From positions 186,001-250,000 of the forward strand of contig NZ_JAMGSI010000001.1 in assembly GCF_023516715.1 (NCBI RefSeq): a stretch of DNA of 64,000 nt. Reading direction: 5' to 3'. Shown one piece after another: positions 1,957 to 43,267 of this stretch; positions within the stretch are counted from its first letter, which is position 1, and each line of letters begins with the position of its first letter. This DNA is from Akkermansia massiliensis (GTDB lineage: Bacteria > Verrucomicrobiota > Verrucomicrobiia > Verrucomicrobiales > Akkermansiaceae). The notes beneath the pieces were generated by a model. The model saw only the letters and a list, made by a program, of their open reading frames with translations. It was not told where the DNA came from and did not search any database. Both the position numbers and the translations under genes were made by a program.

Positions 1957-1957
1957 C

Positions 1958-2985: not shown

Positions 2986-2986
2986 A

Positions 2987-4992: not shown

Positions 4993-4994
4993 TT

Positions 4995-5765: not shown

Positions 5766-5785
5766 CAATCAACCTATTTCAAAAC

Positions 5786-7395: not shown

Positions 7396-7397
7396 AA

Positions 7398-8975: not shown

Positions 8976-9139
8976 ACGAAGAGCTCTTCACCCTCATTGA
9001 CCAGGGGGAACTGACGTGGGAGGATGTATACCGCCATTTCCCCTTTCTGCCCGGCCTCATGAACGACCCAAGCCTGGAGGACGTGTATTACTGCACCCAC
9101 GCCCCGGAAGACGGGGAAGAACCTCATACACTCGAATGA
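8900..9139 (+). CDS. Small acidic protein overlapping the MuF-peptidase gene
   Basis: A 79-residue strongly acidic helical protein (about 18 Glu/Asp) in a different frame from the MuF-peptidase gene. It overlaps the last 76 bases of that gene and overlaps the terminase small subunit gene by four bases. No family is recognised. Position and acidity would fit an inhibitor or immunity protein for the peptidase domain, but a simple phage accessory protein is equally possible. Translation is supported by coupled start and stop overlaps and by codon use like the neighbours. Confidence 0.6.
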   Translation: MDNQGIQAHTERFQKLIQEKRLDEVNEELFTLIDQGELTWEDVYRHFPFLPGLMNDPSLEDVYYCTHAPEDGEEPHTLE

Positions 9140-9645
9140 AGAAGCAACCGACCAGAAAGCAGGAAGCAGAGAATAAAGAGAAGGGGCGCCCGTCCAGGTA
9201 CAGTGCCGCCCTGGCGGAACGCATTTGCGAGCATATCCGGTGCGGTTGCAGTCTGCGAAGAGCCGCTGATAAGGAAGGCGTACCTCATTCCACAGTGATG
9301 ACATGGGCCTTCAACAACACGGTATTTTCCGACCAGTACGCGCGCGCGTGCGAGGACCGATTGACCGCTTTGGAGGACAAGTTGCTTGACCTTGTGGAGA
9401 AGGGGCATGAAGTGGCCCCCTGTGCCGAAATAGGGGGAACCATGCTGCAAGCGGTCAAACTGGAAATAGACACGCTCAAATGGATGCTTGCCAAGCTGAT
9501 GCCGAAGAGATACGGAGACCGCGCGGCTCTGGCCCTGGAAGGTGGAGACACGCCCGTTAAATTGGCTCACACGCTGCCCGCAGAAGCAGTGGCGCCGCTG
9601 GCAGCAGCCTTGAAAGAAATATGGTCAGAAGAGGAAGAAAGCTAG
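9136..9645 (+). CDS. terS: Terminase small subunit
   Basis: 169 residues. After a basic N-terminal tail comes a helix-turn-helix region (about residues 20-65, with Cys-Gly-Cys-Ser-Leu-Arg-Arg-Ala-Ala and Val-Pro-His-Ser-Thr-Val-Met-Thr-Trp), then a helical oligomerisation segment. This is the usual plan of phage small terminases, which bind the packaging site and hand DNA to the large subunit. The start ATG 9136 overlaps the previous stop, and the 3' end overlaps the large subunit gene by 25 bases. The pairing with terL supports the call. Confidence 0.8.
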   Translation: MKKQPTRKQEAENKEKGRPSRYSAALAERICEHIRCGCSLRRAADKEGVPHSTVMTWAFNNTVFSDQYARACEDRLTALEDKLLDLVEKGHEVAPCAEIGGTMLQAVKLEIDTLKWMLAKLMPKRYGDRAALALEGGDTPVKLAHTLPAEAVAPLAAALKEIWSEEEES

Positions 9646-11150: not shown

Positions 11151-11178
11151 AACTCATATCCAGTCCCAGCTATTTACG
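11148..11178 (+). repeat. 31-bp motif, copy 1 (ahead of the tail fibre gene)
   Basis: This 31-base segment matches 17505-17535 at 26 positions, including CATATCCAG and CTATTTACG in the same spacing. In both places the motif begins exactly with the TGA of the upstream gene and lies 28-29 bases ahead of the next ATG, which lacks a usable Shine-Dalgarno sequence. A shared regulatory signal, such as a late promoter element, processing site or leader, is the simplest reading. Confidence 0.6.
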
Positions 11179-11206
11179 GATTTGAGGATTGCCGCATCAT
11201 GTCCGT

Positions 11207-13432: not shown

Positions 13433-13833
13433 ACAACGCAGAAATACAGATACAATTCCCACGGCCCGGCGATTGGCAGGAATTCGCCTTGACGGCCATC
13501 TACCGGGACGCGGAGGGGTACACCCGTACCGACAGCTACACTGCGCGAGAGATACCAGCGGACCAGGCCCCGGCCATGCAGGCTGTAGTTGCCGCGCTGG
13601 TGGGACTGGCGGAACCGTGGAAAGCCTCCCAGGTGTGGGCGCGGCTGGAGGATTTCATCAATTTTGACCGGCGCCCTGACGAGCCCACATCTGTTGAGAG
13701 CGTCTGGCTGACCGTCGAGGCCGTCAACCCTCAGGGCGGACGCCGGACGTTCACCGCCACGGACTACCCGGATTTCATCATTCTGGACCCTGCCGCCATC
13801 GTATTCTTTAAACATTTCACCACCAATAAATAA
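13429..13833 (+). CDS. Fibre-associated phage protein of unknown function
   Basis: A 134-residue acidic protein whose ATG overlaps the fibre gene stop (ATGA), so the two are translationally coupled. It is beta-rich (Ile-Gln-Ile-Gln-Phe-Pro, Ala-Leu-Thr-Ala-Ile-Tyr-Arg) and has no membrane segment. Genes in this place often encode fibre chaperones or small fibre partners, and that is the best guess here. No family is recognised. Confidence 0.6.
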   Translation: MNNAEIQIQFPRPGDWQEFALTAIYRDAEGYTRTDSYTAREIPADQAPAMQAVVAALVGLAEPWKASQVWARLEDFINFDRRPDEPTSVESVWLTVEAVNPQGGRRTFTATDYPDFIILDPAAIVFFKHFTTNK

Positions 13834-13838
13834 CAAAT

Positions 13839-14117
13839 ATGAACGTAAATAAAAACGACATTGAAAAGGCCCAGCAGGCGGCATCTGCCCGCTGGGGGAA
13901 TTGGGTCAAGTACGTCATCGGCGCCATCATCGGCGCTCTGGCCGCTGCTGGCTACATCACCGTAACCGGCTGCGGGCATAACGTGGACATTACCCCGGAC
14001 CGCACCGAGGTCTGCAAGGACGGTTCCTGCCTGATCATCGAGCAGGGCCACCTGTCCTACAGCCAGGCCCAGCCCAAGACGGAGGTTCCGCCCGTAGTTC
14101 AAGCTACCAAGAAATAA
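13839..14117 (+). CDS. Small membrane protein, lysis-cassette candidate
   Basis: 92 residues: a short amphipathic N-terminus, one strong membrane helix (about residues 21-42, rich in Ile, Gly and Ala), then a Thr-Val-Thr-Gly-Cys-Gly segment and an external tail with two more cysteines and a Pro-rich end. The Cys after the helix looks somewhat like a lipobox, so an Rz1-like spanin or holin-associated protein is possible. The position just ahead of a second small membrane protein and an endolysin supports a role in lysis. Assignment is by context. Confidence 0.55.
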   Translation: MNVNKNDIEKAQQAASARWGNWVKYVIGAIIGALAAAGYITVTGCGHNVDITPDRTEVCKDGSCLIIEQGHLSYSQAQPKTEVPPVVQATKK

Positions 14118-14121
14118 GACC

Positions 14122-14331
14122 ATGTGTGATTTTGTAGACAAGCGGCTGGAAACCATCCGCAAGTACAAGGACATCATCATGATGTTCGGCGGGGCTGGGG
14201 CTGCCGTCTGCATCTACATGGACTTCAGGACGGTGGTCCAGGAACAAGCGGAAACTTCGGCCAAGACTGCTGAAATACTCCGCACAATGGACCTCCGCCT
14301 TTCCAACCTTGAACACCAGACCAATAAATAA
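14122..14331 (+). CDS. Putative holin or holin accessory protein
   Basis: 69 residues with one membrane helix (about residues 19-35, Ile-Met-Met-Phe-Gly-Gly-Ala-Gly-Ala-Ala-Val-Cys) and a C-terminal coiled-coil-like segment (Lys-Thr-Ala-Glu-Ile-Leu-Arg-Thr-Met-Asp-Leu-Arg-Leu). Size and topology fit a class III holin or a spanin-like partner. It lies four bases after another small membrane protein, and the endolysin gene is 300 bases downstream. No sequence family is certain. Confidence 0.55.
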   Translation: MCDFVDKRLETIRKYKDIIMMFGGAGAAVCIYMDFRTVVQEQAETSAKTAEILRTMDLRLSNLEHQTNK

Positions 14332-14332
14332 T

Positions 14333-14575
14333 ATGCCTAACAATTTATACACCAATTCAGGACTCTCTTTTTCGGATGCTCTCCACGCTTTGAAAAATGG
14401 CAAGGGAGCCAGATTGCCGAAATGGTCCCCGGATGTAGTCATCCGCGCCCAGTTCCCGGACGAGCACAGCAAGATGACAGCTCCCTATCTGTACGTGGAA
14501 TCCCGTTTCGGGCGGGTGCCGTGGAAGGAGACGTTTATCGAACTGTTTTCCGAAGAATGGGAGATTGTCGACTGA
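14333..14575 (+). CDS. Tad2-like (DUF2829) anti-Thoeris protein
   Basis: 80 residues with the DUF2829 pattern. Ser-Phe-Ser-Asp-Ala-Leu-His-Ala-Leu-Lys-Asn-Gly (12-23) is the family's opening helix. Trp31, Met-Thr-Ala-Pro-Tyr (48-52), Val-Pro-Trp (62-64) and the closing Phe-Ser-Glu-Glu-Trp-Glu-Ile-Val (72-79) follow in the right order and spacing. Some DUF2829 proteins (Tad2) bind the signalling nucleotide made by the Thoeris system and so block that defence. Residue-level binding cannot be judged here. It sits inside the lysis cassette, an accessory-gene position. Confidence 0.7.
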   Translation: MPNNLYTNSGLSFSDALHALKNGKGARLPKWSPDVVIRAQFPDEHSKMTAPYLYVESRFGRVPWKETFIELFSEEWEIVD

Positions 14576-14631
14576 ACTGTAAAGTTTTTCTTACAAGTTC
14601 TAACCAGTTCTAATCAAAACAAGTTATAACT

Positions 14632-15213
14632 ATGAATAACACTGAAAGAAACATGGCTGCGGCCATCCTCCGCTTTGAAGACAGCCGTGTGACCGGTCCG
14701 GCCTCCCTGCGCGTCTCCCGTCTCCCTGCTGCCGACAAGGGCGGGAAATGGGAGATTTGCGGCATTTGCGATGGCATTGAACCCGCCGTATTCAACCGCC
14801 TCAAGTCCCTGCTGGACGCCGGAAAGCGGGAAGAAGCCTGGGAGGGCTGTCTTCAGTACGTCCTGGACAATACCGCCGCGGTCCGCGCCTGGATTGGTTC
14901 TGACGCCCATCCGGGCATTGAGTTCTTCCTCCGGGACCACTATTTCAATTCCGGCAGCAAGAACACCGGGAAGATATTGCAGCGCGTCCTCGACAAACAT
15001 CATTCCGGCCTCACTGTGGATGGCATCATTGGCCCCATGTCCAAGGCATTTCTGCATAATTCCCTATCGCGTGGTAATGATGCAGCATTCCTTGATGACC
15101 TCCGGGAACAGCGAGCAGCCTTCTACCGCTCCTGCAAGCAGTTCCCGACCTTCGGGCGCGGCTGGCTGCGCCGCTGTGACGACGCCTACAGCGTTGCCCG
15201 TTCCCTCGTTTAA
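14632..15213 (+). CDS. Endolysin (GH108/PG_binding_3-type)
   Basis: A 193-residue protein without a signal peptide. The N-terminal Arg-Phe-Glu-Asp (about 14-17) supplies a possible catalytic Glu. The middle holds a Asp-Gly-Ile-Ile-Gly-Pro-Met-Ser segment typical of peptidoglycan-binding repeats. The end has Arg-Ala-Ala-Phe-Tyr-Arg-Ser-Cys then Phe-Gly-Arg-Gly-Trp-Leu-Arg-Arg-Cys, the pattern closing GH108/PG_binding_3 phage muramidases. The usual Glu-Gly-Gly-Tyr segment is not seen, so the N-terminal domain is divergent. It would degrade host peptidoglycan after holin action. The 56-base leader before the ATG is AT-rich. Confidence 0.7.
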   Translation: MNNTERNMAAAILRFEDSRVTGPASLRVSRLPAADKGGKWEICGICDGIEPAVFNRLKSLLDAGKREEAWEGCLQYVLDNTAAVRAWIGSDAHPGIEFFLRDHYFNSGSKNTGKILQRVLDKHHSGLTVDGIIGPMSKAFLHNSLSRGNDAAFLDDLREQRAAFYRSCKQFPTFGRGWLRRCDDAYSVARSLV

Positions 15214-15237
15214 TCCTTCTCCCCACTTATCCGTCCC

Positions 15238-16605
15238 ATGAGTAAGAAGCCCCGCAGCCAAAAGGCCGCCAAGACAACCAAGGCCGCTGACATTGAGATT
15301 TTCGAGGACCGCTCCCCGCAGGAACGCGGCTATCTCGGCATCTATGAGACCATCACGCCCAAGGTGCTGAAAAATGCCCGTGAAAGCGTCCAGACGGGCA
15401 ACATGCTCGATCTGGAACGCGTGTTCCGCTCGATGAAAATCGAATGGCCGCGGCTGCGGGGCAACTTGCGGAAGCTCCGGGAAAACGTGCAGGAATTGGA
15501 GCTTGCCGTAACCCCGTGGGCGGAAAAGGGAAAGAAGCCGACTCCGGAAGCCATCAAGCACGCGAATCTTGTTGAATCCGCCTTGTACCGCTGCCGGCTG
15601 GAACAGGGGAAGTGGGAACTGGATTTGAATGGACTGATCGGAGCCTTGGCGGAAGCGCCGGAACGCGGGGTGGGCGTGCTGGAAATCATGTGGGAACCCG
15701 GCAAGATACGGTCTCCCCGCGCATATTGCCCCATTCCGTCCACGTTTTTCAAATGGTCCAGCTATCCGGCGCAGATTGACCGCCTTGTCCTGTGTCCGGA
15801 TGGAGTAGGGAACAGCCCCGAAATGGAATTCCCGCCTGATAAATTCATTGCCGCCATCAACTGCGACGGGCTTGACCACCCCATGTACGGAGCAAACATG
15901 CTCGCCCTGGTGGGATGGTTCGGGGCTGCCAAGTTCGGCCTCTCCTGGTTCATGCAATTCTGCCAGATATTCGGTTCCCCTCTTCGTCATGGCAGGGCAT
16001 CGGGAACGGTGGCCCAGCGGAAGCTATTTGACCAGATGATTAAATTCGGGCAAACCGGTATCCTGGTGACTGACCCGGAAGCACAGGTTGACTTCGTCGA
16101 CGCCGTCAAGGGAGGGACACAGCTTCCGCACCTGGACATGCTCCGCGAGTCCAATAATGCTTGTGACATCCTGATTTTAGGGCAAACCCTGACCAGCGAC
16201 GTTTCCAGCAAGGGCGGCAACCGTGCGTTGGGAGAAGTGCATGAAGCCACGGAAAACAAGGTCGTGCTGGCCCGCGGCAAATATGTTGCCGGCATCCTCA
16301 ACCAGCAGCTTGTTCCGGCCATTCTCCGGCTCAACATGGGCCGCCTTCCGGAACACCTGCCGATCATCTCTTTCAAGGACCCGTCCTCCGGCATGAGCGA
16401 AGCAAAACTTGGCTGGGTGGAAAGGGCAACCAAGCTTGTTCCCGTCGCAAAGGAACAGGTTTACGACTGGCTGGATATTCCCATGCCCGAAGAAGGCGCG
16501 GAGCTCTATCAGCCACCATCGTTTGGAGACGACCCGGAAACGGGAGAGATGGATGACCTGGACCGGGAATCCCTGGTGCATGCAGCGCGTAAAAAAAAAC
16601 GCTGA
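15238..16605 (+). CDS. Portal protein, DUF935 (Mu gp29-like), zero-frame product
   Basis: 455 residues with the DUF935 portal signature: Leu-Arg-Lys-Leu-Arg-Glu-Asn-Val near residue 80, a central Gly-Val-Gly-Val-Leu-Glu-Ile-Met-Trp, and Pro-Leu-Arg-His-Gly-Arg near residue 250. The portal is the dodecameric ring through which DNA is packaged. This frame ends at a run of nine A followed by CGC TGA, and it lacks the helical C-terminal region usual in DUF935 proteins. That region is encoded immediately downstream in the -1 frame with no start codon (next entry), so a frameshift is likely. Confidence 0.88.
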   Translation: MSKKPRSQKAAKTTKAADIEIFEDRSPQERGYLGIYETITPKVLKNARESVQTGNMLDLERVFRSMKIEWPRLRGNLRKLRENVQELELAVTPWAEKGKKPTPEAIKHANLVESALYRCRLEQGKWELDLNGLIGALAEAPERGVGVLEIMWEPGKIRSPRAYCPIPSTFFKWSSYPAQIDRLVLCPDGVGNSPEMEFPPDKFIAAINCDGLDHPMYGANMLALVGWFGAAKFGLSWFMQFCQIFGSPLRHGRASGTVAQRKLFDQMIKFGQTGILVTDPEAQVDFVDAVKGGTQLPHLDMLRESNNACDILILGQTLTSDVSSKGGNRALGEVHEATENKVVLARGKYVAGILNQQLVPAILRLNMGRLPEHLPIISFKDPSSGMSEAKLGWVERATKLVPVAKEQVYDWLDIPMPEEGAELYQPPSFGDDPETGEMDDLDRESLVHAARKKKR

Positions 16606-16898
16606 AGCACATTGACGAGGTCAACCGGATTGCCGCGCGCATCGGGCGTCAGACGGACCAGGCAGCCCATGAACTGACCTCCGGCCTTGCCGGATTCATA
16701 GAAAACCTTATCGCCGCCGTCGAGGCCGGGGAAGACCTGGAAACGGTCATCCGGTCTGCCCGTGAGCAGGTGCCGGACCTGTGGGACCAGATAGACACCT
16801 CCAAATTGGAAGACCGGCTTGTCAGGATCCAGCACGCCGCGCTGGAAGCCGGCTGGAACTCCATGCGCGAGCCGGAAACCGCCAATGTGGAAGGATGA
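16593..16898 (+). CDS. C-terminal domain of the DUF935 portal, read by -1 frameshift
   Basis: The -1 frame relative to the portal is open from 16593 to TGA 16896-16898 and encodes about 99 clearly protein-like helical residues (Ile-Ala-Arg-Ile-Gly-Arg-Gln-Thr near the start, Ala-Ala-Leu-Glu-Ala-Gly-Trp-Asn near the end). This is the type of tail that closes full-length DUF935 portals. The frame has no ATG, GTG or TTG in its first half and a TAA at 16590, so it cannot be expressed alone. It joins the portal in frame if ribosomes slip back one base on the A run at 16591-16599. A mutation or an assembly error in the A run is the alternative. Confidence 0.7.
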   Translation, partial: KKTLKHIDEVNRIAARIGRQTDQAAHELTSGLAGFIENLIAAVEAGEDLETVIRSAREQVPDLWDQIDTSKLEDRLVRIQHAALEAGWNSMREPETANVEG

Positions 16899-16904
16899 CG
16901 GGCC

Positions 16905-17507
16905 ATGAACATTGAAATTGAAATGAGCGGCTTTGACGCCGTGCTGAATGAGGCCATGAAAATCGTTGCCCCGGAAACGCTGGAAGCCGCGAACCGGGAA
17001 AGCGGGGAATACCTGCGGGACTATCTGGCGTCCTGGTACGACAACAAGGGGCGGGAACACTGGGTCAACAACTCACTTCCTACACACGGCCCGGGCCGCA
17101 TGTCGACAGGCTGGTTCTCCAACATTGCGCGCAAATGGTTCCTTTCCTCTGCGGACGCTTCCGGAGCGGTCATCACAAACCCTGACGAGGACGGCTCCCT
17201 GCGGCACAAAATCAGGGGAGGGACGATCACGGCCAAAAATGCCGGGGCACTGACCATTCCCCTTGTTCCGGAGGCCCACGGGCGCCGGGCGGCTGATTAT
17301 CGCTCTGAAATCGGGGAATTGTTCACCATCCCCAACAAAAGCGCCCTGTTTGAGGCCGTGGAAGGCGGCGGGGTGCGTGCGGTGTACGCCCTGCGCCAAT
17401 CCATCACACAGGACCCGTGGCCGGACGCCATCCCGGCCAGCGAAGAATTGGCCGCGGCCTATGGCATCAAGCTCATGGACGTTCTGGCGGCCTCCCTGGA
17501 TGCCTGA
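16905..17507 (+). CDS. Phage head-tail or virion morphogenesis protein (tentative)
   Basis: A 200-residue protein between the portal and the protease-scaffold gene. In Mu-like heads this interval often holds a virion-morphogenesis (gpG-like) or minor head protein. Visible features: Ala-Asn-Arg-Glu-Ser-Gly-Glu-Tyr-Leu-Arg-Asp-Tyr near residue 30, a His-Gly-Pro-Gly-Arg-Met-Ser-Thr-Gly-Trp segment near 61-70, and Ile-Pro-Asn-Lys near 143. There is no membrane segment. The family is not certain. Its stop codon begins copy 2 of the 31-bp motif. Confidence 0.5.
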   Translation: MNIEIEMSGFDAVLNEAMKIVAPETLEAANRESGEYLRDYLASWYDNKGREHWVNNSLPTHGPGRMSTGWFSNIARKWFLSSADASGAVITNPDEDGSLRHKIRGGTITAKNAGALTIPLVPEAHGRRAADYRSEIGELFTIPNKSALFEAVEGGGVRAVYALRQSITQDPWPDAIPASEELAAAYGIKLMDVLAASLDA

Positions 17508-17535
17508 AATCCATATCCAGCCCCGACTATTTACG
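17505..17535 (+). repeat. 31-bp motif, copy 2 (ahead of the protease-scaffold gene)
   Basis: Matches 11148-11178 at 26 of 31 positions and likewise starts with the upstream gene's TGA. Between this copy and the next start codon, CCATGC (17551-17556) and GCATGG (17562-17567) form a perfect 6-bp stem with a 5-base loop. The stem contains the start codon ATG 17564-17566, which could modulate translation of the protease-scaffold gene. Confidence 0.6.
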
Positions 17536-17563
17536 CAATCGCGTTTCATGCCATGCTTGGGGC

Positions 17564-18655
17564 ATGGATTTTGAGTTTAACGTCCCTCTTGCGTTCAGTG
17601 GTGATTCTCCGGCACGCATTGTATACATGCCGGAGGGCGTGCATTATATCAATGCATCCGTTGGCGGGCGGCAGAAGGTGATTGTAGACCGCTCCTGTCT
17701 GGCCCCCTTGAAACGTGACCTAGCCTTAAAGCTGGCAAAAAACGTCCGTCCTGTCTGTCTGTTTGATCATAAAATGGGGCCAGCCTCCTTTCTTCCGTCC
17801 GACTTTGACTATTTGGACGGGGTCGGGCCAATTCTGGTGGGCGAATGGACATTGAGCGGCAAGAATGCCAAGGAGGGAAAAGACTACGGCTATTTTTCAC
17901 CGGCGTTCAGGCTTGACCTCAACACTTGCAAACCCGTGGGGCTGGAGCCGGATGACATTGAGGTGGGCTCCCTGGTCAATGACCCGGCCTTTGAAAACAT
18001 TGCCCGCATTGCGGCCAGCAAGGCCAAGCTTGAGAATTTCACGGTCCTTGGACCGGATACCCCCTTGAATAGCGACGGAGAGGATACCGACGCCGTTCAT
18101 AACCAAACAAACAACACAAATACAACAATGTACGAACTACTGGTTAAATGCGGCGTCCTCACCAAAGAGGAAGCCGCATCTGATAAGGCCGGCAAGATCG
18201 CGGAGGATAAAATCAACGACCTGAAGAAAAAATCCGAAGGAGGCGAGAAGTCCAAAGCGGAACTTGAAGCGGCCAAAAAGGAGGCGGAGGACGCCAAAAA
18301 GGAAGCGGCCACCTGCAAGGCGGCCAAGGCCAAGCTGGACGACACCGAAGCCAAACTGAAAGCCGCGGAAGAGGAACTTGCCGAGGTGAAAGCATCCAAG
18401 GCGGCTCTCATTGACGCGGAAATTGAAGCCGCCATCAAGGCCGGCAAGATTGCCCCGGAAAACGAAGAAGCCAAGGAAGCGCTCAAGACCGCCCTGACTG
18501 CCAATATCAAGGCCGGCAAGGCTTTGATTGACACGATGAAGCCGGACCCCGCGTTTGCGACGGTGGTCGCCAACAAGGGTAAAGGCGGAAGCGGCGGCGA
18601 AGAACTCACTGGACGTGACCGCATCATTGAAAACATCAACAAGGAAAAGAACTAA
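17564..18655 (+). CDS. Mu I-like prohead protease fused to scaffold
   Basis: 363 residues. The N-terminal 185 residues match the Mu protein I / phage I-like protease type, with Val-Cys-Leu-Phe-Asp-His-Lys and Tyr-Phe-Ser-Pro-Ala-Phe segments. Residues about 200-300 are a long Ala/Lys/Glu coiled coil (repeated Lys-Lys-Glu-Ala-Glu-Asp-Ala-Lys-Lys) that acts as scaffold in this family. The protease matures the capsid and removes the scaffold. The start ATG 17564 lies in a small hairpin and has no Shine-Dalgarno sequence. An internal in-frame start at 18128 could give scaffold alone. Confidence 0.85.
   Translation: MDFEFNVPLAFSGDSPARIVYMPEGVHYINASVGGRQKVIVDRSCLAPLKRDLALKLAKNVRPVCLFDHKMGPASFLPSDFDYLDGVGPILVGEWTLSGKNAKEGKDYGYFSPAFRLDLNTCKPVGLEPDDIEVGSLVNDPAFENIARIAASKAKLENFTVLGPDTPLNSDGEDTDAVHNQTNNTNTTMYELLVKCGVLTKEEAASDKAGKIAEDKINDLKKKSEGGEKSKAELEAAKKEAEDAKKEAATCKAAKAKLDDTEAKLKAAEEELAEVKASKAALIDAEIEAAIKAGKIAPENEEAKEALKTALTANIKAGKALIDTMKPDPAFATVVANKGKGGSGGEELTGRDRIIENINKEKN
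18128..18655 (+). CDS. Probable nested scaffold protein from an internal start
   Basis: ATG 18128 is in frame with the protease-scaffold gene (codon 189) and is preceded by about 25 bases of almost pure A and C. This is the same leader type seen ahead of independent genes in this prophage (467, 5786, 26358). Starting here gives a 175-residue product that is nearly all coiled-coil scaffold. Mu and lambda make free scaffold from an internal start inside the protease gene, so this is expected. Use of this start is inferred, not proven. Confidence 0.55.
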   Translation: MYELLVKCGVLTKEEAASDKAGKIAEDKINDLKKKSEGGEKSKAELEAAKKEAEDAKKEAATCKAAKAKLDDTEAKLKAAEEELAEVKASKAALIDAEIEAAIKAGKIAPENEEAKEALKTALTANIKAGKALIDTMKPDPAFATVVANKGKGGSGGEELTGRDRIIENINKEKN

Positions 18656-21888: not shown

Positions 21889-22299
21889 ATGGAAACGACT
21901 GTTTCTCCTTTTTCCGTTACTTTTGACGGGCGCCCCGTCGTCCGCGCCGGGGAATGCCTGCTCGATGCCCTGCCGGAACACGCTTTCCCGGTCCAGTTCG
22001 GCACCTCGGCAACTCCCATCATCAACAGTCCGTTTCCCCGCCTGGATGCCTTCGGCAACATTTCCATGTCCTTCTCCATCTCCACCGTCCGGGAATGTGA
22101 TTCCCACATGGACGCGTGGAGGAGCTTTTATGAATGGCTCCGCGACTGGAAGACGGCGGGGAAGGGAACCCTGACTTGGGCCGACTGCATCGGTTCCCAT
22201 GAGCAGCGGTTCGAGGCCATCGTCGCCGACGCGGAACCCAAAGTGACAGGGCTGTATTTCATCGTCTCCTACAACTTCACTCTTGGCAAACCCCTATGA
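21889..22299 (+). CDS. Tail protein of unknown function
   Basis: 136 residues: a beta-rich start (Phe-Ser-Val-Thr-Phe-Asp-Gly-Arg-Pro-Val-Val), then Trp-Arg-Ser-Phe-Tyr-Glu-Trp-Leu-Arg-Asp-Trp and a C-terminal Gly-Leu-Tyr-Phe-Ile-Val-Ser-Tyr. It lies between the tube and the large baseplate-like gene and overlaps the latter by four bases, so a tail or baseplate accessory role is likely. No family is recognised. Confidence 0.55.
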   Translation: METTVSPFSVTFDGRPVVRAGECLLDALPEHAFPVQFGTSATPIINSPFPRLDAFGNISMSFSISTVRECDSHMDAWRSFYEWLRDWKTAGKGTLTWADCIGSHEQRFEAIVADAEPKVTGLYFIVSYNFTLGKPL

Positions 22300-24512
22300 A
22301 AACCCTTGACGTTTCCAGCAGCGAATTCCTGGACATCGCCGAAAGCCCCGCCTACAGCCGGCTTTCCTTCGGGGGCGCCTCCGTCTCCTTCCGCGTCCCC
22401 GTAGACCGCTTTTCTTCCTGTCCCTATGAAGAGGGAGAAATTGTCAAAGTCGTGTGGCGTGGGAAAACCCTGCTCATTGGTCCGGTCATCAACCCGGAGC
22501 ACTCCCTGGACGGTACTTCCGAAAGCTGGGACATCAAGATTCATGATTTCTGGTGGAATCTCGCCAACATCCAATATTTCAGCGATGGGCGCTCCCGCGG
22601 AATCTTTGCCTCGTACAAATACGGCACGGACGGGAGCCAGGTCAAACAGGCCACGGCCAAAATCAAGGACGCCCTGGCCGGCATCCTGGACCACGCCATC
22701 AAAACGGCCCTGGTTCCGATCAAGTACGACCTCCGGATTGACCAGGAGGCGGAACTGATACCCTTTGCCTACTCTTCCGAGACTTACGCTTCCCTCCTGA
22801 TTCAAATTCAAAAATGGCGCCCCAACATGGCCGCATGGTTTGAGTATGGGGCTGGCGACGCTGTCACGCTGGTCATTGCCGATCATGCCAACCTGCCGGA
22901 CGTGGTGCTTGACCTGTCCGCCGTGGACGTGAGCACCCTTTCCCTCAAGGCGCGGCCCGACCTGGTGCCCCCTGCCGTAGGGCTGACCTGCAACGCCTCC
23001 ATTGGCACCAATGTGCAACGAGCCGTGGCCGTCTACCCTCCGGGGGCGTCCCTGTCCCAGCCTTATGTGGTCACTGCGGAGGTGGATGTGCCGGGCGGGC
23101 TCAATGTGTCGGATGCCTCCGGCCAGCACGAGCCCGTGGAAACTGGGACGCTGGGCTATGACGCTCCCCGGATGACCGTCAGGGGTGACAAATTCCCCGC
23201 GGCAAAAGCTCAATGGCTGGCCCGCGTCAAACGCTGGGTGCCGGCCCTGGCGGACTGCGCCAACCTGGAAGTTGCCAACCTCCCGACAGTGGTACCTATC
23301 ACGCCCGCGGACGCAGAGCACCGGGGCTATGACCGCAACGCCATTTCCCATGAACTTATAGGCGGCCAAATCAACGGCAAGAGCTCAAAAATCAAGTGGG
23401 GCAAGGTCAAGGTTGATGTCCGGCTGCGCGCCACGGATCCGCCCGCCACGGCTAAGCAGTATTTTCCGGAATTTGCCGGGCGCACGGACGGCGGCGACCG
23501 CTGGATAGGGCTGATCCCGTTTGAGGTGACGACGACCAACGTCGCCCATGCCCGGTACCTGATGGACGACAAGGGAACGGTGGAATACCTGGATAACGGG
23601 GACGGTCCGGTTGACCCCGGCAACCCGGGAGACGATGGAGACTACAATTCCGCAGCCCTGTACGTCAAATTTACGGAGAGTATCTACAAGGCGACCCGCA
23701 TCATGCCCTATGACGGCTCCGCGACTGTGCACGACGACTTTGACCAGGTTTGCGGGGGGCGCCTCTCCATCACGGGAGGGCTGCGCGAGTGGGAAACCAT
23801 GCGTTCCGTCATCCAGGAAATTACCCTCGACCTCAAGACGGGAGCGTCTGATGTTACGGTGGGTGCCGCGGAACAGCTTTCCTTGCAAGACTCCATCGAC
23901 AAGAGCAAGCAGCTCGCCGATGCCCTCCGCAACACCTCCCAGGCGTCCGCTTCCACGTCTTCCGGCGACGGTTCCGCGGGCGGCGTGGGACCGGGCGGCG
24001 GCGGGACCATCCCCAGCCCGGACATGGACGACAAAAAGCCGGAGCTCCCCAGCGTGGGGCCGTCCGTCAAGATCGGACAAGCCCAGGAGTCCCCGGCCAT
24101 GGGGACAAGCGCCGTTGAAGTCGGCTTCCAGTGCCGGCTTGCCTACGATGATGCCGGGAAGGTGGATGAAGCCTACATCCGGCAGGGGAAAGCCATGTAT
24201 GCCGGCAACTACATCGGGGGCATACTGCCGGAGGGCGCCGGTTCCGGCGGCTGGGTAAAAAGCCCCACCACCTCCGGGGAAGTCTGGCTGAAGGTGCAGT
24301 TGGATAAAGACGCCAAATACATGGGTTCCTATCTTTCTGCAGTCGGCGGGGTTACCGATCCTGTGAAGCTGGGGGAAGAGGACCGCCAGACTCCTTATGA
24401 ATATTTTTTCCACCTTGCCACCATCGACGGCGACAAGGTTGTGCAGCATCAGACGGGAACGGTGTATTTACAGTACGATCCCGGAACCTTCGGCCCAAGC
24501 GGTAAATCATGA
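22296..24512 (+). CDS. Large baseplate hub / tail tip protein
   Basis: 738 residues. The first 400 are beta-rich with a Val-Trp-Arg-Gly-Lys-Thr-Leu-Leu-Ile-Gly-Pro-Val segment, the kind of start seen in gp27/hub-like proteins. Around residues 545-580 is a low-complexity Ser/Gly/Pro linker. The final 130 residues form another beta domain (Gly-Thr-Val-Tyr-Leu-Gln-Tyr-Asp-Pro). The position between tube and tape measure genes and the size fit a hub or tail-tip protein. The downstream glycosyltransferase gene overlaps by four bases, so the two are cotranslated. Confidence 0.6.
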   Translation: MKTLDVSSSEFLDIAESPAYSRLSFGGASVSFRVPVDRFSSCPYEEGEIVKVVWRGKTLLIGPVINPEHSLDGTSESWDIKIHDFWWNLANIQYFSDGRSRGIFASYKYGTDGSQVKQATAKIKDALAGILDHAIKTALVPIKYDLRIDQEAELIPFAYSSETYASLLIQIQKWRPNMAAWFEYGAGDAVTLVIADHANLPDVVLDLSAVDVSTLSLKARPDLVPPAVGLTCNASIGTNVQRAVAVYPPGASLSQPYVVTAEVDVPGGLNVSDASGQHEPVETGTLGYDAPRMTVRGDKFPAAKAQWLARVKRWVPALADCANLEVANLPTVVPITPADAEHRGYDRNAISHELIGGQINGKSSKIKWGKVKVDVRLRATDPPATAKQYFPEFAGRTDGGDRWIGLIPFEVTTTNVAHARYLMDDKGTVEYLDNGDGPVDPGNPGDDGDYNSAALYVKFTESIYKATRIMPYDGSATVHDDFDQVCGGRLSITGGLREWETMRSVIQEITLDLKTGASDVTVGAAEQLSLQDSIDKSKQLADALRNTSQASASTSSGDGSAGGVGPGGGGTIPSPDMDDKKPELPSVGPSVKIGQAQESPAMGTSAVEVGFQCRLAYDDAGKVDEAYIRQGKAMYAGNYIGGILPEGAGSGGWVKSPTTSGEVWLKVQLDKDAKYMGSYLSAVGGVTDPVKLGEEDRQTPYEYFFHLATIDGDKVVQHQTGTVYLQYDPGTFGPSGKS

Positions 24513-25243
24513 TCAGGATTTACATTTTCACGTATGCTGGAGACGCCCAGGAGGCCGTTGCCTGCGTCCGGTGCGCCAGAACGGCGCTTCCCGGTGCCCT
24601 TGTAACCGTGGCGGACGATTCAGCCTTTCCGGTGCCGGAAGAAGTCAGGAGGGCTTTTCTGGCTTATGGAGCGCGCTACAAAAGGACGGATTTTCCCAGG
24701 AATGGCAATCTCAACGGGCCGGAATGCGTCAGGGGCATTATTTCCACGCTGGCCGGGGACGCCGCGGATGACGACATCATCGTCAAAATTGATTCCGACA
24801 CGGCGCTTTTGTCCGGCGAGTGGGTCAGGAACATGCACGGAGTCGGCCTTGACTGGTACGCATGCGGATGTGGGGCACGCCGGTTCTTCGGCCTTTGCTA
24901 CGCCATGAGTGGAAAAACAGCCAGACTGGCCGGCGAGGCCCTGGAGCATGCAACCCTGCCGGAAAACGCCCCGGAAGATCTTACCATTGGACGGACGGTC
25001 ATTGACCTGTGCGGTATGGAACGGGGGCATTTTGCCGCTCCCTGGACACCCATGAACCGCGCCGGGCGCTGGTCCTGGTGGAACTGGGACAGCAGCACGA
25101 CGGACCCGGAGGACTACGCCCGCTCCTATGACGTGGTGAACGTCGGGAACCCCCGTCCTCCCCACATCCCCAAAAGCGCCCGCTGGGAGGTCATGCACGC
25201 CATGTGCGACGCGGTCATGAATGAAAGGAGGGGCAAGGAATGA
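24509..25243 (+). CDS. GT-A type glycosyltransferase in the phage tail operon
   Basis: 244 residues. An N-terminal Rossmann-like beginning (Arg-Ile-Tyr-Ile-Phe-Thr-Tyr-Ala-Gly-Asp) leads to a metal-binding DxD motif Asp95-Ser-Asp97 within Val-Lys-Ile-Asp-Ser-Asp-Thr. This is typical of GT-A nucleotide-sugar transferases. There is no membrane segment or signal peptide. The start overlaps the hub gene and the stop overlaps the NeuA-like gene, each by four bases, so the product should be made together with tail proteins. Donor and acceptor are unknown. Confidence 0.7.
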   Translation: MIRIYIFTYAGDAQEAVACVRCARTALPGALVTVADDSAFPVPEEVRRAFLAYGARYKRTDFPRNGNLNGPECVRGIISTLAGDAADDDIIVKIDSDTALLSGEWVRNMHGVGLDWYACGCGARRFFGLCYAMSGKTARLAGEALEHATLPENAPEDLTIGRTVIDLCGMERGHFAAPWTPMNRAGRWSWWNWDSSTTDPEDYARSYDVVNVGNPRPPHIPKSARWEVMHAMCDAVMNERRGKE

Positions 25244-25845
25244 TTGCCATTATCCCTGCCAAGGGACACAGCGACGCCGTACCCCGCAAGAACATGGCGG
25301 ACCTGGGCGGGATGCCCCTGTTCTGGCACTCCGTCCGCTACGCGCGGGCGGAAGGCGTGGAGCCCGTTGTCAGCACTGACGATACGGAGATCAGGGATTA
25401 CGCCTTGGAGCGTGGTTGCCGAGTGGTGGATGAAGTTGTGAACGACAGCAGCATGGTTAACTGCGTCCGGCAGGTGATGGGCCAGGTAGATGCCGACCGC
25501 TACGCCCTCCTTCAGCCCACCTCTCCCCTCCGGGAACCGGGATTGCTGAACAGAATGGAACGTATGAGCGCTGCCTGCGCCTTTACGGCCCAACGCATCA
25601 AGGTGATTGGCAGGCTGGGAACGCGTCTTGTTGTTCAGGGGCGGCGGCAGGACGCCTGCGACATCCTTCTTCAGTTCGATGGCTCCATTCTCACTGGTAC
25701 ACGATTCATGGCGGAACAGGGCATCCTTTTTGCCCCGGATGCCGTAGCTGTGGAGCAGCGCCCTCCATTCACCGTTCAGATAGATCATTCAAGCGATCTT
25801 AACATAGCAAGAGCATTATATGAATATAGCAATAGTTGGAAATAA
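25240..25845 (+). CDS. NeuA-like CMP-sugar synthetase (acylneuraminate/KDO cytidylyltransferase family)
   Basis: 201 residues. The cytidylyltransferase signature is clear: Ile-Ile-Pro-Ala-Lys-Gly with Pro-Arg-Lys-Asn (15-18), Val-Val-Ser-Thr-Asp-Asp (43-48) and Leu-Leu-Gln-Pro-Thr-Ser-Pro-Leu-Arg (90-98). Family members activate sialic acid, KDO or pseudaminic/legionaminic-type sugars as CMP derivatives. The Arg-Pro motif usual after the STDD region is replaced by Asp-Glu-Val-Val, and the C-terminus is short, so substrate or activity may differ. It overlaps both neighbouring glycosyltransferase genes. Confidence 0.78.
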   Translation: MIAIIPAKGHSDAVPRKNMADLGGMPLFWHSVRYARAEGVEPVVSTDDTEIRDYALERGCRVVDEVVNDSSMVNCVRQVMGQVDADRYALLQPTSPLREPGLLNRMERMSAACAFTAQRIKVIGRLGTRLVVQGRRQDACDILLQFDGSILTGTRFMAEQGILFAPDAVAVEQRPPFTVQIDHSSDLNIARALYEYSNSWK

Positions 25846-26332
25846 GCACATCGCTCACGACTGTTCCGCACGCATTGACGTGGCGGATATGGTTGTACGC
25901 ATCTCTAAAATGGACCACCTGGATTCCGGGCTGGTGGGGACGAGAACGGATGCACTCTACTTGGAACCAAATTGCGTATGGTGGGGATATCCTCCCGAAC
26001 GTCGCAGGCTGGATATGCTCAATACGATCCCGTCGATTTACATCAGGAATTCATGGTGGCGGCGCACTGGGGAAAAACTTATCTCGCAGGGTATTCTGCG
26101 TTGGGATCAGGTGCATGTCATCCCTCCGGAAGTGGAGAACGGACTGAAGGACTGCACGACGTTTGCAATGGCTGTCTACGATGTTCACAGGCGGTTACCG
26201 GAAGCGGTTATTTTAGGCGCGGGCGTCGACTTCGGACAGGAACGGGACCGCGTTTTCCCTTACCACGCCCATAGTGGGGAAAGTTCCTATATGGACAGCC
26301 TTGTCAAGCGAGGAGTGCTTTTCCCTATTTAA
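25820..26332 (+). CDS. Sialyltransferase-like protein (GT29-like)
   Basis: 170 residues resembling the sialyltransferase GT29 pattern. Ile-Val-Gly-Asn (5-8), an Arg-Ile-Asp (18-20), Val-Val-Arg (25-27) and Val-Gly-Thr-Arg-Thr-Asp (39-44) form a sialylmotif L-like block. Cys-Thr-Thr-Phe-Ala-Met (112-117) with Gly-Val-Asp-Phe (135-138) resembles motif S, and Tyr-His-Ala-His-Ser-Gly-Glu (148-154) the closing His/Glu region. It is short for the family. It overlaps the CMP-sugar synthetase gene by 26 bases, and donor synthetase beside transferase is a telling pair. GT42-like ancestry is an alternative. Confidence 0.62.
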   Translation: MNIAIVGNKHIAHDCSARIDVADMVVRISKMDHLDSGLVGTRTDALYLEPNCVWWGYPPERRRLDMLNTIPSIYIRNSWWRRTGEKLISQGILRWDQVHVIPPEVENGLKDCTTFAMAVYDVHRRLPEAVILGAGVDFGQERDRVFPYHAHSGESSYMDSLVKRGVLFPI

Positions 26333-26357
26333 TTTCAACAACTAATAAATAAACAAC

Positions 26358-28865
26358 ATGTCAGACAAAGAACTAAACATCAACATCAGGACGACCGCCG
26401 ACACTTCCGGAGCCGACCAGACTGCGGAGGCCATCAACAAGACCCGGGAAGCGGCCCAGGGAGCCGGCGAAAGCGCGGACGCCATCAACCAAGTAACCGA
26501 TGCCCTGAACAATGCCAAAACGGCAGCCGAGGAAACCGGCGCCGCCATGAATGAGGGCATAGGGCCGGAACAGGAAAGAGCTTTGGAAAACGCCAGGAGC
26601 AAACTTGACGAATACGCCGACGCCCTGACCGCTGCCGGTTCCCGGATGAAAGCCGCCTTTGACGACAACCCCGGACTGACCGGCTTTATCGACGAAGTAA
26701 CCAACGGTGTTCTGACCTCCGAAGAATTCAGGAAGAAGCTGGAACAGGTGGATGACGTCTTTGAAGTCCTCAACGACAGGGCCTCCAACCTGGACCTTGG
26801 GGCGAAGTGGGGGGATGGCCTTGACGAAAACCTTCAGAAGATCATCGACGATTACAACAAGGAAATGGACGCCGCCGACAAGGCAGCGGACAAAGCGGAA
26901 GATGCGGAGGCCCGGAAGCAGAAAGCCGCCGCGGCTACGGTGGAACGGCTGGAAGCCGGGAACCGCCGCGCCTCTGCCACCTATGAGGAATTGCAGGCCG
27001 AACTTGAAGCCTACATTGCCAAGCTGGAAGAGGCCCGGAAGGCGGGGGACAACGTAGCCCAGGCGGATGCCCTGAAGAATATTCAGGATTTGGGAAGGCG
27101 CATCAAGACGGCAGGAGAAGCCGGAGAACTCACCACGACGCAGGTGAAGGGGATGGCCGGACAAATCACCATTGCGGCAACGCGCATCCTCGGCATGTCC
27201 AGTTCCCTGCGGGGGGCCATTCCATTCATTCATTTGTTCGGCACCACCATCAAGACGGCCATGGGGCCGCTTGGCTGGGCCATGCTGCTGATCCAGGGGC
27301 TTACCGCGGGCATTAGTGCCCTGATTGACCATTTCAAGGCCAAAAGCGATGAACTTGACAAGGCAGCCGAGAAGGCAAAGAGGAAGCATGATGAAATCAA
27401 CCAGTATTTGAGGGATGCCGAAAAGGGCCGCCTTGCTCTTGTTCAGAAAACGAAACAGGAGGATGCGGCCAACGTCGTCAACCGGGAGTATGAACAGTAC
27501 GTCAAAAACATTACGTACGAATATCAGCAGCAGACAAGGGAAATTGAGTATCAGCTTACCCTTCGCAAGATGGAGATTGCCGAAAAGCAGGGGGCGGACA
27601 CCTGGAAAAACAAGATGGAACGTTTGGATGTAGAGGAACAATACCAGGATGGCAAAATCAGCAAGCACGAAAGAAAGTACAAGCTTTTACTTCTGGATCA
27701 GGAACTTGAAAGGATAACGGAGCGAGCCAAGATTCAAACCGCTCATGAGGAAGACCTTGCCTTAGCTGACAAACAAGGGGATGCCGAAGGGAAAAGAAAT
27801 ACAGCTTTAGGCGAAGCCTCACGGCTACAGGATGTGAAAATGAGTCTTCCTACTGTTGATGAAATGGCAGGGATTTTCAAGAAACAGAATGAAGTTCAAA
27901 TGGAGGTACAATCATGGGATAAAAGAATAGAAGAGGTTGGAAAGAAGGTTTCTTTAGTAAAAGAGGCCATAGAGGGTATTCCCGATTTTTTACCAACGCC
28001 CGAAAAAATGGTAAAAGAAATGGAAAAACTTGAGAGAGAAAAGGAGAAATATTTAGAATCCAGGAAACGAGCACAAAATTCCCTCAATAATTCAGTGAAC
28101 CATATTTCTAATATTCAAGAAAGACTGGAAGAAGAAGGCATATCGTTTCAACCTTCTTACGGTGTAGGCAAGGACGGGAAGCCTGTTACTAACGAACAAA
28201 GAACCGAAGAATATAAAACCTCCTTAAAAAAGGTTGAAGCCAGACAAAAAACAGCACTAGAGGAGGCAGGAAAACACCAAGAAGAATTAAATGATATTTT
28301 GAAAGAGCGTGTTATTATTCAAAAAGGAATGTTGCGTCTTGAAACAGAAGAAGCGAGAAATGAGCAAGTACGAAAGAAAGAAGATAGGGTAGGGGAAAAG
28401 GAATGGAAAAACGAAAAGAAGAAGGAAGAGGAAAAGGGACAGAAGAAGCTTGACCAGAAAAATGAACAGGAACTAAAGAAGCTTCAGCGGGAACAGCAGC
28501 AGGAAGCCAACAAGGCCATTAAAACCTTTGTGGAAGGCTTCACCATCAACGCTGGGAAGAGTGCCTCCCCCCGGCAAACCGCCATAGTTCACAAAGCTAT
28601 TGACGGTATCAGAAAAGACATAGAACGCGCAGCGGCTGATGGGCATATTGACCCGGAAGAAATGCAGGATTTAGGCAAGCTTTTTGTGGGAAAACTGACG
28701 GAACTTGGAGTTGCATCAAGACAAGCTATCCAGGGTTTGAAACAGGAGTTCGACAGCAATATGGGGGCTGTTAATGCAGAAATCAAAGCCATTAAAAAGT
28801 GGGCCAACACCACGGAGAGACAGAAGCGGCCCGGTTGTGTTGTGAATGCTCCTTTCCGCAGATAA
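26358..28865 (+). CDS. Tape measure protein
   Basis: 835 residues, almost wholly helical with long Glu/Lys/Ala/Gln coiled coils. A hydrophobic block (about residues 285-325, rich in Leu, Ile and Gly) is typical of tape measures. The protein sets tail length and passes DNA through the host envelope. Bases about 27700-28450 are markedly more AT-rich than the rest of the gene, suggesting recombination inside it. The protein ends with a basic Cys-containing tail. The leader is A-rich with no Shine-Dalgarno sequence. Confidence 0.75.
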   Translation: MSDKELNINIRTTADTSGADQTAEAINKTREAAQGAGESADAINQVTDALNNAKTAAEETGAAMNEGIGPEQERALENARSKLDEYADALTAAGSRMKAAFDDNPGLTGFIDEVTNGVLTSEEFRKKLEQVDDVFEVLNDRASNLDLGAKWGDGLDENLQKIIDDYNKEMDAADKAADKAEDAEARKQKAAAATVERLEAGNRRASATYEELQAELEAYIAKLEEARKAGDNVAQADALKNIQDLGRRIKTAGEAGELTTTQVKGMAGQITIAATRILGMSSSLRGAIPFIHLFGTTIKTAMGPLGWAMLLIQGLTAGISALIDHFKAKSDELDKAAEKAKRKHDEINQYLRDAEKGRLALVQKTKQEDAANVVNREYEQYVKNITYEYQQQTREIEYQLTLRKMEIAEKQGADTWKNKMERLDVEEQYQDGKISKHERKYKLLLLDQELERITERAKIQTAHEEDLALADKQGDAEGKRNTALGEASRLQDVKMSLPTVDEMAGIFKKQNEVQMEVQSWDKRIEEVGKKVSLVKEAIEGIPDFLPTPEKMVKEMEKLEREKEKYLESRKRAQNSLNNSVNHISNIQERLEEEGISFQPSYGVGKDGKPVTNEQRTEEYKTSLKKVEARQKTALEEAGKHQEELNDILKERVIIQKGMLRLETEEARNEQVRKKEDRVGEKEWKNEKKKEEEKGQKKLDQKNEQELKKLQREQQQEANKAIKTFVEGFTINAGKSASPRQTAIVHKAIDGIRKDIERAAADGHIDPEEMQDLGKLFVGKLTELGVASRQAIQGLKQEFDSNMGAVNAEIKAIKKWANTTERQKRPGCVVNAPFRR

Positions 28866-43141: not shown

Positions 43142-43176
43142 CCGGGCTTCCCGTTTTCGGGGAGCCCGGTTTTTTT
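43142..43176 (+). terminator. Terminator of mdh
   Basis: A 12-bp GC-rich stem (43142-43153 with 43158-43169, one G-T pair) and a TTTT loop are followed by seven T residues. A textbook Rho-independent terminator. Confidence 0.93.
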
Positions 43177-43267
43177 GTGCCTTGAAAGCTCCGTAAGCCT
43201 CATTTTCTGCGGGACAGAAGTTTTCCCCCGTGTTAAAAAGAAAGATGGATGCAGCATCCGCTTATTT

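Follow-up and report, generated by a model that had tools for sequence, protein, structure and literature searches.

A predicted glycosyltransferase paired with a tail protein domain, and an inserted CMP-sugar synthetase with a sialyltransferase-like protein, in an Akkermansia prophage

Introduction

Why should a prophage carry genes for the activation and transfer of a sugar between the genes for its tail? The question is raised by one locus of the window, i.e. the whole stretch of 64,000 nucleotides of Akkermansia massiliensis DNA that was analysed, in which a first-pass annotation had seen a three-gene glycosylation cassette, apparently for a CMP-activated sugar. The three genes are designated here GT, CST and ST. 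We ask what their products are, whether they belong together, and where the sugar might go.

Organization of the locus

The assignment of an Akkermansia-type prophage to the window is backed by PHROG matches for terminase, portal, head maturation protease, major head protein, endolysin and DnaB-like helicase. The ORFs of GT, CST and ST were verified on the plus strand (Table 1), and their coordinates agree with the earlier placement between the “hub” and tape measure genes, with overlaps of 4 nt between “hub” and GT, 4 nt between GT and CST, and 26 nt between CST and ST. The protein encoded upstream of GT gave no informative profile match in PHROG or PDB and “hub” is therefore a name by position only. 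The protein encoded downstream of ST has a weak PHROG tape-measure match (E 0.012), and its counterpart in phage Chambord is annotated as tail length tape measure protein. Two 747-aa ORFs of the window (11189-13432 and 43175-45418) were considered as copies and rejected, as blastp gave no match at 1e-3.

Table 1. Features of the tail locus, with positions in the window
Feature	Description	Length	Position	Strand	Basis
“hub”	structural tail protein	738 aa	22296..24512	+	ORF call
GT	predicted GT-A-fold glycosyltransferase	244 aa	24509..25243	+	predicted fold, DSD and conservation
CST	CMP-sugar synthetase (CTP_transf_3)	201 aa	25240..25845	+	Pfam
ST	predicted compact GT29-like sialyltransferase	170 aa	25820..26332	+	predicted fold and motifs
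Insertion		1115 bp	25213..26327	+	blastn; ends set by local alignment
Tape measure protein		835 aa	26358..28865	+	weak PHROG match and Chambord annotation

The three proteins

For GT, no match was found in Pfam, PHROG or NCBIfam at E up to 1, and neither Pfam nor the PDB sequences hold a relative from which a family could be named; its identity rests on the predicted fold. Foldseek matched the AF2 model (pLDDT 77.5, pTM 0.82) to PDB structures of UGGT, LgtC, glycogenin and GlyE (best E 1.6e-7), and VIA-align gave Z values of 13.6-15.8 to chondroitin synthase, B3GalT5 and B3GNT2. A DSD motif at residues 95-97 is invariant (8/8). With a predicted GT-A fold and a DxD motif, GT is probably a GT-A glycosyltransferase (GT8/GT24/GT31-like), in line with the DxD-type enzyme proposed before.

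CST is the only one of the three proteins with Pfam matches, namely CTP_transf_3 and NTP_transf_3. The former is matched at 5.8e-12 with 46.3 bits (cut-off 22.6), spanning residues 2-106 only, and phmmer matches CST to NeuA and KdsB structures, whose chains (228-264 aa) are longer than CST; the first-pass reading as a CMP-sugar synthetase is thereby supported. CST is not assignable to one equivalog (NeuA, KdsB or PseF), since every model score is under its cut-off: the best NCBIfam-type models were PseF and KdsB, all far below cut-off (PseF 45.8 vs 205.7 bits), in a model list that holds no NeuA model.

ST had no match in Pfam (PF00777 included), PHROG or NCBIfam at E up to 1, and none among the PDB sequences by phmmer or profile. 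Its identity as a sialyltransferase-like protein rests on the fold predicted by AF2 (pLDDT 75.9, pTM 0.77), the model being built on 5 sequences, with the five models spanning pLDDT 45.0 to 75.9. In the Foldseek search against PDB, ranks 1-28 were all GT29/GT42 sialyltransferases (best E 6.0e-5), with ST8Sia at rank 21 (5cxy, identified via profile search), and rank 29 was FtsZ. VIA-align gave Z 11.6 to ST6GalNAc2 and 11.4 to ST3Gal1 (model range 1-170), and the non-sialyltransferase Rossmann folds SteA and HPPK reached Z 10.6 and 9.3. The model has the GT-A variant 2/Rossmann-like fold of GT29, as far as a prediction can tell.

An HxxxxE motif (sialylmotif VS) lies at residues 149-154, with H149 and E154 invariant in 6/6 aligned sequences. 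In hST3Gal1 this motif starts with the catalytic base His, and sialylmotif III is HYYE-like with its His as catalytic acid (available text of PMC6884586). Sialylmotif III is missing in ST: from S to VS, the alignment shows no H-Y that is conserved. In the sialylmotif S region only TT (113-114) and G135 are invariant. The motif-L-like segment (residues 2-46) contains IVGN, ID..D.V.R and GTRTD, which align with a Pfam-GT29 protein and lie outside the hhalign alignment. The GT29 comparison set consisted of three proteins of the phylum from Pfam GT29, two above and one just below the cut-off, which used as a profile match GT29 structures. Against this profile, hhalign aligned HxxxxE of ST (prob 88.7, E 2.5e-6) over 36 columns, which are C-terminal only and cover neither motif L nor motif S. 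In a shuffle test, 0/500 reached the score of the window ST versus L095; the 11 remaining ST/GT29 pairs gave weaker results, with 1 to 47/500 shuffles reaching the score. The sialyltransferase-like protein of the first-pass annotation is thus supported by predicted fold and HxxxxE, with sialylmotif III missing.

The glycosyltransferase and the tail protein domain

Residues ~601-738 of the “hub” protein correspond to a C-terminal domain (~125 residues) that is common to the proteins directly 5' of GT and that matches across divergent Akkermansia prophages, also in proteins whose N-terminal parts do not match. The distance from the end of the domain to GT is 0-32 nt in 26/26 loci with a GT of at least 39% identity over at least 200 residues, i.e. 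the window, 9 viral contigs, 13 genus genomes and 3 phage records, which are not all independent, as some may be one phage in different records. Five GT matches of 39-42% over 48-142 residues (G012, G022:C10, G026:C22, G034, G043) were left out of this count, and in two of these, the short loci L060 and L061, the tail domain was not seen; where the GT match is partial or more distant, a tail domain nearby is mostly absent, some of these loci being short. GT is an old phage gene that is present as an independent gene in many Akkermansia prophages, and from the gene order its pairing with the tail domain favours the virion as site of the sugar. The end of “hub” and GT also diverge jointly from the phage L016 (identity in 200-nt bins 0.84, 0.78, 0.75 and 0.62, then 0.90; 0.93-1.0 on the 5' side of this region). 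This co-divergence could be plain mosaicism, since the tape measure gene likewise differs from L016 in its 3' part.

CST and ST as an insertion

CST and ST are a clean 1.1-kb insertion that carries most of CST and ST. The near-identical phage L016 has 4 nt in its place, and blastn aligns L016 to window positions 24001-25212 at 81% and 26328-27000 at 96%. CST and ST are present in 1/26 GT loci, a count in which the downstream side of L019 and L116, ending 42 and 120 nt past GT, is not contained, whereas for the genus genomes among the 26 the ST search covers the rest of the genome. The first-pass annotation had taken the three genes as one cassette and had proposed a survey of related prophages for conservation of the trio in the tail module. 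The trio is not conserved as such and a three-gene unit is not supported, since GT alone is widespread in Akkermansia prophages and only CST and ST were inserted; the comparison argues for two layers rather than one cassette.

ST was found neither in the phage collection (tblastn) nor in the viral contigs (as single protein or alignment). CST gave one weak record in the phage collection and as single protein no viral contig, and its alignment search gave two distant ones. These absences cannot be taken as counts of rarity, because the searches may omit near records and a 99%-identical ST exists in the viral fold library (A0A8S5UAA1, “Myoviridae sp. ctZYN8”), nearly the same protein and with no function assigned. 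In this library, annotated GT29 proteins stand at ranks 3 and 6 for ST as query; A0A6J5NLG3, an annotated GT29 protein of an uncultured Caudovirales phage, is a loose fold match (TM-score 0.30 on query).

CST-ST in bacterial chromosomes

Within the genus, 10/76 genomes have an ST match, and in 8 of these 10 the whole chromosomal CST-ST ORF was read. Of the remaining two, one contains a TGA in frame (G029) and the other sits at the start of a contig, its upstream side being unseen (G073). CST and ST are fused in 8/8 ORFs read, which strengthens the earlier suggestion of donor activation beside a transferase, CST and ST being neighbours in the window. The same genome that holds the prophage encodes a GT10-CST-ST protein of 1075 aa (L026, 10017-13244), whose CST and ST are 39% and 32% identical to those of the window and in the same order. 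Unlike the window genes, it is one polypeptide that also includes a fucosyltransferase and a C-terminal part, and it belongs to a glycosyltransferase cluster and not to a phage, adjoining GT6, GT31+GT11 and a second GT10 protein. GT10 was Pfam-scanned in 1/8 ORFs (L026); four more have the same length, and in L029, L030 and L035 the ORF is shorter, beginning at CST. Across the order, the ST profile matched 10/288 genomes, 9 in the genus and one, weakly, in another genus. A CST-like gene lies directly 5' of the GT29 gene in 2/4 phylum genomes with a GT29 match, and PF00777 has 0 matches in the prophage-bearing genome. The compact GT29-like domain, fused to a donor-making enzyme among Lewis/blood-group-type transferases, raises the possibility that Akkermansia itself mimics host glycans.

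The sugar

Sialic acid itself is plausible as the transferred sugar. The host genome has 4 matches to PF13088 (sialidase-type) and genes for a NanA-like lyase and an AGE-like epimerase; neither TRAP DctP nor a dedicated sialate transporter was found in it. As it has 0 NeuB matches, sialic acid would have to be salvaged, and we infer salvaged Neu5Ac or Neu5Gc as the most likely sugar. Kdo is a less likely candidate, since this genome encodes a separate KdsB. An ulosonic acid other than sialic acid (Kdo, pseudaminic or legionaminic acid) is quite unlikely; in its favour speak the PseF and KdsB models that score best for CST, below cut-off, NeuB-like ORFs seen by eye on two viral contigs with CST relatives, and plant GT29-like proteins proposed as Kdo transferases (in the available text of PMC5811610); a host with its own KdsB and without NeuB-family match, and a chromosomal CST-ST that sits among Lewis/blood-group-type transferases, argue against it.

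Proposed mechanism and alternatives

The reading that we tentatively prefer, rated a little short of probable, is that the phage adds a sialic-acid-like sugar as a cap to a glycan built by GT, probably on the tail protein. In a first layer, GT most likely attaches an initial sugar, or a short glycan, to the C-terminal domain of the upstream tail protein. In a second layer, CST would form a CMP-sugar from CTP and the ulosonic acid, and from this ST would cap the GT-built glycan. Sialic acid salvaged by the host with its sialidase-type, NanA-like and epimerase genes would feed CST, and the virions would show mucin-like sialylated tails. Activity, sugar, acceptor and expression timing are what we infer from the genes. 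In its fullest form, which we regard as rather doubtful, a temperate phage would activate mucin-derived sialic acid with a CMP-sialate synthetase of its own and would sialylate its own tail by means of a GT29-like enzyme of minimal size (170 residues). The conserved pair of tail domain and GT would then serve Akkermansia phages in general as a platform for virion glycosylation, with swapped decorating enzymes. If true, gut phages would wear host-like sialic acid, and mucus retention, recognition by lectins or antibodies, and adsorption could change.

The main alternative acceptor is the surface of Akkermansia: in lysogeny or early infection, GT, CST and ST might sialylate LPS or capsule and not the virion, leading to receptor change or mucus mimicry. 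The closest CST-ST relatives come from a chromosomal cluster of surface-directed-looking glycosyltransferases, and temperate phages are described to alter host serotypes in lysogeny (available text of PMC12619734), but the genes lie inside a structural operon with 4-nt overlaps and GT tracks the tail-protein domain in all 26 loci, so that we hold such a conversion to be unlikely. The same pairing makes it highly improbable that GT modifies phage DNA bases and that CST and ST extend this DNA glycan, although DNA hypermodified by virus-encoded glycosyltransferases is known from a title cited in the same article. If ST were another small Rossmann-fold protein, the CST-ST pair would be a degenerate or repurposed remnant. 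This would fit with the missing Pfam match and sialylmotif III, the low-depth model and the Z values of SteA and HPPK; it is improbable in view of the uniform first 28 Foldseek ranks, an HxxxxE that is invariant in divergent relatives and the fusion to a CMP-sugar synthetase in chromosomes.

Comparison with known systems

Serotype-conversion cassettes of the gtrABC type consist of a flippase and membrane glucosyltransferases; in the present trio, Pfam matches belong to CST only. Compared with CAZy GT29 (ST3Gal1, ST6GalNAc2, ST8SiaIII, bacterial GT29), ST shares the full-length predicted fold and HxxxxE, and with some bacterial GT29 genes also the CMP-sugar-synthetase partner, and its start may correspond to motif L; it differs in having 170 aa versus ~265-330 in the solved chains, in the missing sialylmotif III and in lying under Pfam detection. 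In a literature search of freely available journal articles, no title on a sialylating phage stood among those listed; “sialyltransferase” occurs 0 times in the available main text of an article on gut phage carbohydrate proteins (PMC9853417), and “sialic” 0 times in that of one on the Akkermansia capsule (PMC13343947). In mycobacteriophage virions, the subunits of capsid and tail tube bear glycans at their C-termini (available text of PMC12619734). Similar to these, a glycan on a phage structural protein is predicted here from the genes; unlike there, GT lies beside the C-terminal domain of a tail protein, a CMP-sugar step is added and the acceptor is a putative one.

The wider finding is the tail domain with its own glycosyltransferase in every one of the 26 loci. 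Akkermansia phages Chantilly and Chambord have the same order of hub, GT and tape measure genes as the window, but contain neither CST nor ST. Both are listed among the induced prophages of the OMM12 consortium with A. muciniphila as host (available text of PMC10197239), and since these GT carriers are thus induced prophages of a cultivated strain, virion glycosylation of Akkermansia phages is directly testable.

Tail operon and insertion of the CST and ST genes

The three genes claimed as a glycosylation cassette, encoding a glycosyltransferase (GT), a CMP-sugar synthetase (CST) and a sialyltransferase-like protein (ST), lie exactly where the first-pass annotation had placed them. The tail protein gene and GT overlap by 4 nt, as do GT and CST, and CST and ST overlap by 26 nt. 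The surrounding prophage region contains terminase, portal, protease, head protein and endolysin genes and is carried by a genome of 3.28 Mb. All three phage records matching the window are Akkermansia phages. Among the named contigs that hold an ST relative, four of five bear the label Akkermansia or Akkermansiaceae and the remaining one, a MAG, is labelled Clostridiales. Between terminase and portal lies an ORF for a mosaic, swapped protein of 747 aa, which is 96% identical to locus L075 over residues 428-745 and 34% over residues 7-137, and which had no match in a PHROG search.

Starting at the head protein gene and until shortly before the tail gene ends, the window is 93-100% identical (200-nt DNA bins) to the near-identical phage L016. 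The tail gene end and GT diverge more (0.84 to 0.62, last bin 0.90), and towards its 3' end the tape measure gene does too (0.39-0.65). The alignment runs up to 25212 and resumes at 26328, with only 4 nt between in L016; the intervening 1115 bp, which hold CST and ST, are an insertion. ST is not confined to this genome, since another phage sequence, Myoviridae sp. ctZYN8, has a 99%-identical protein on record.

Table. Coordinates of the features discussed
Feature	Locus	Positions	Strand	Size (aa)
Tail protein ("hub", positional name)	window	22296-24512	+	738
GT	window	24509-25243	+	244
CST	window	25240-25845	+	201
ST	window	25820-26332	+	170
Tape measure protein	window	26358-28865	+	835
Mosaic ORF	window	11189-13432		747
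Multi-domain glycosyltransferase cluster (GT10+CST+ST, GT6, GT31+GT11, GT10; large proteins), own chromosome	L026 (G000:C1:1466213-1477866)	6213-17866
CST-ST ORF	L031 (G029)	4346-5491
GT relative	L074	15333-16055
GT relative	L086	15197-15919
GT relative	L087	10072-10758	minus
Distant GT relative, then large ORF	L025 (viral contig)	5944-10010		1168 (large ORF)
CST relative and NeuB-like ORF	L112 (viral contig)	3992-7598
CST relative and NeuB-like ORF	L113 (viral contig)	994-3500
ORF with motif-L-like and PSTG segments	L111 (G424)	1054-1890		278

Pairing of GT with a tail-protein domain

GT had no match in profile searches. Its predicted model (pLDDT 77.5, pTM 0.82) is of GT-A fold and residues 95-97 are DSD, unchanged in all eight aligned sequences, which supports the claimed DxD-type glycosyltransferase. 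Foldseek matches include UGGT, LgtC, glycogenin and the S. pneumoniae glycosyltransferase GlyE, and VIA-align gave Z 15.8 for chondroitin synthase (rmsd 3.4, 213 residues), 14.4 for B3GalT5 and 14.0 for B3GNT2, the nucleotidyltransferase IspD also scoring 13.3. Because of the fold and the invariant DSD the donor is probably a UDP-sugar; the GT family cannot be named.

GT loci (GT at least 39% identical over at least 200 residues) were compared across the window, viral contigs, genus genomes and three phage records. In all 26, a tail domain of ~125 residues ends 0-32 nt 5' of GT. Where prophages of the genus are more distant, their tail proteins show ~27-28% identity or match in the last part only, yet these last ~125 residues are still recognisable, followed by GT. 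Nine viral contigs all have the tail protein and then GT; CST and ST are missing beside GT in eight, and the ninth (L019) stops 42 nt past it. The claimed cassette thus stands in part: GT is widespread with the tail domain, but the trio is not conserved, the CST-ST pair being present in 1 of the 26 loci (L019 and L116 end too soon past GT to show it). The domain/GT pairing, a purely genomic association, is the best evidence that GT may act on the C-terminal domain of the tail protein.

Next to more distant or partial GT matches, e.g., in L075 and L025, the domain is mostly missing. Three GT relatives of ~31-33% identity (L074, L086, L087) have no tail domain nearby, and two of them (L074, L086) adjoin the same 597-aa ORF. 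The L025 relative (36%) is followed by an ORF with segments that resemble, by eye, a sulfotransferase, a glycosyltransferase and a methyltransferase; these might be a further decorating set located 3' of the same GT.

Identity of CST and ST

CST matches Pfam CTP_transf_3 (5.8e-12), and phmmer finds structures of NeuA, CMP-N-acetylneuraminic acid synthetase and KdsB; KdsB and IspD are encoded by separate host genes. We consider it very probable that CST is a CMP-sugar synthetase. The profile agrees with the NeuA-like assignment at family level, NeuA itself not being assigned, and since no equivalog model reaches its cut-off, CST does not reveal which sugar is activated.

Family searches with ST gave no match. 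The model from a five-sequence alignment (pLDDT 75.9, pTM 0.77; 45-58 for the other four models) retrieved sialyltransferases at Foldseek PDB ranks 1-28, mostly GT29 and also GT42 CstII (best E 6.0e-5), with FtsZ at rank 29. VIA-align gave Z 11.6 for ST6GalNAc2 (rmsd 3.5, 160 residues) and 11.4 for ST3Gal1 (2.9, 146); because SteA (10.6) and HPPK (9.3) also score, Z values alone do not settle the identity. Residues 149-154 form an HxxxxE motif, unchanged in six of six aligned sequences, which in hST3Gal1 starts with the catalytic base (PMC6884586) and adds weight to a GT29-like reading. Against a profile of three phylum proteins from a Pfam GT29 search (two above the cut-off, one just below), the HxxxxE end alone aligned (probability 88.7, E 2.5e-6, 36 columns). 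The score of window ST with L095 was reached by none of 500 shuffles, those of the other 11 ST/GT29 pairs by 1-47. Predicted fold and motif thus fit the claimed sialyltransferase, but there is no family match and no sialylmotif III, the motif that holds the His acting as catalytic acid. ST may work like a GT29 enzyme and is likely a GT29-like transferase, yet we do not file it as a GT29 member. Bacterial GT29 proteins are already known (PMC5811610), and some viral proteins, one from an uncultured phage, already bear this name (viral fold-library match). A 278-aa ORF in another genus of the same family (L111) might connect ST with classical GT29/GT42.

Sugar source and proposed mechanism

NeuB was not found in the own genome; five of 76 genus genomes have it, none of them with an ST match. 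Four sialidase-type (PF13088) matches, a NanA-like lyase adjoining an AGE-like epimerase (each under its equivalog cut-off) and two SSF-family ORFs of unassigned substrate fit sialic acid salvage; a TRAP DctP search found nothing. A. muciniphila sialidases free Neu5Ac and Neu5Gc from porcine mucin (PMC10067855), and a sialic acid is, in our judgement, a reasonably likely identity of the sugar. Two viral contigs (L112, L113) have a CST relative few genes from a NeuB-like ORF, judged by eye, apparent nonulosonic-acid pathways.

Most likely, the operon would make tail protein, GT, CST and ST jointly in lytic growth: GT would prime the C-terminal domain of the tail protein, CST would turn a salvaged sugar into a CMP-sialate-like donor and ST would cap the primed domain. 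Of the two targets proposed for GT and the pair, we slightly favour the virion over the lysogen surface. Virion glycosylation is known from mycobacteriophages, as described in PMC12619734. New, so far as our searches reach, are the compact GT29-like form that Pfam misses, the fact that it is coupled to an own synthetase within a tail operon, the existence of a near-identical phage lacking the pair, and the association of the tail domain with GT across phages of Akkermansia.

Chromosomal relatives

ST matches occur in 10 of 76 genus genomes, and chromosomal CST and ST form one polypeptide in all eight ORFs read, five of ~1075 aa and three shorter, beginning at CST. In two of four phylum genomes with a Pfam GT29 match, the GT29 gene lies directly 3' of a CMP-sugar-synthetase-like gene. 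Activation and transfer are thus linked in three ways: by fusion, by adjacency of bacterial genes and, in the phage, by gene overlap. The own-genome polypeptide also bears a GT10 fucosyltransferase. Neighbouring genes encode a GT6 protein, one that combines GT31 and GT11, and another of GT10 type; a weak match to CgtA lies there as well. Judged by family names, this cluster appears to serve surface glycans of Lewis or blood-group-like type, a reading that a sialyltransferase would fit, and host-glycan mimicry by the bacterium itself is possible. The L031 CST-ST ORF has an in-frame TGA within ST and is possibly a decayed copy.
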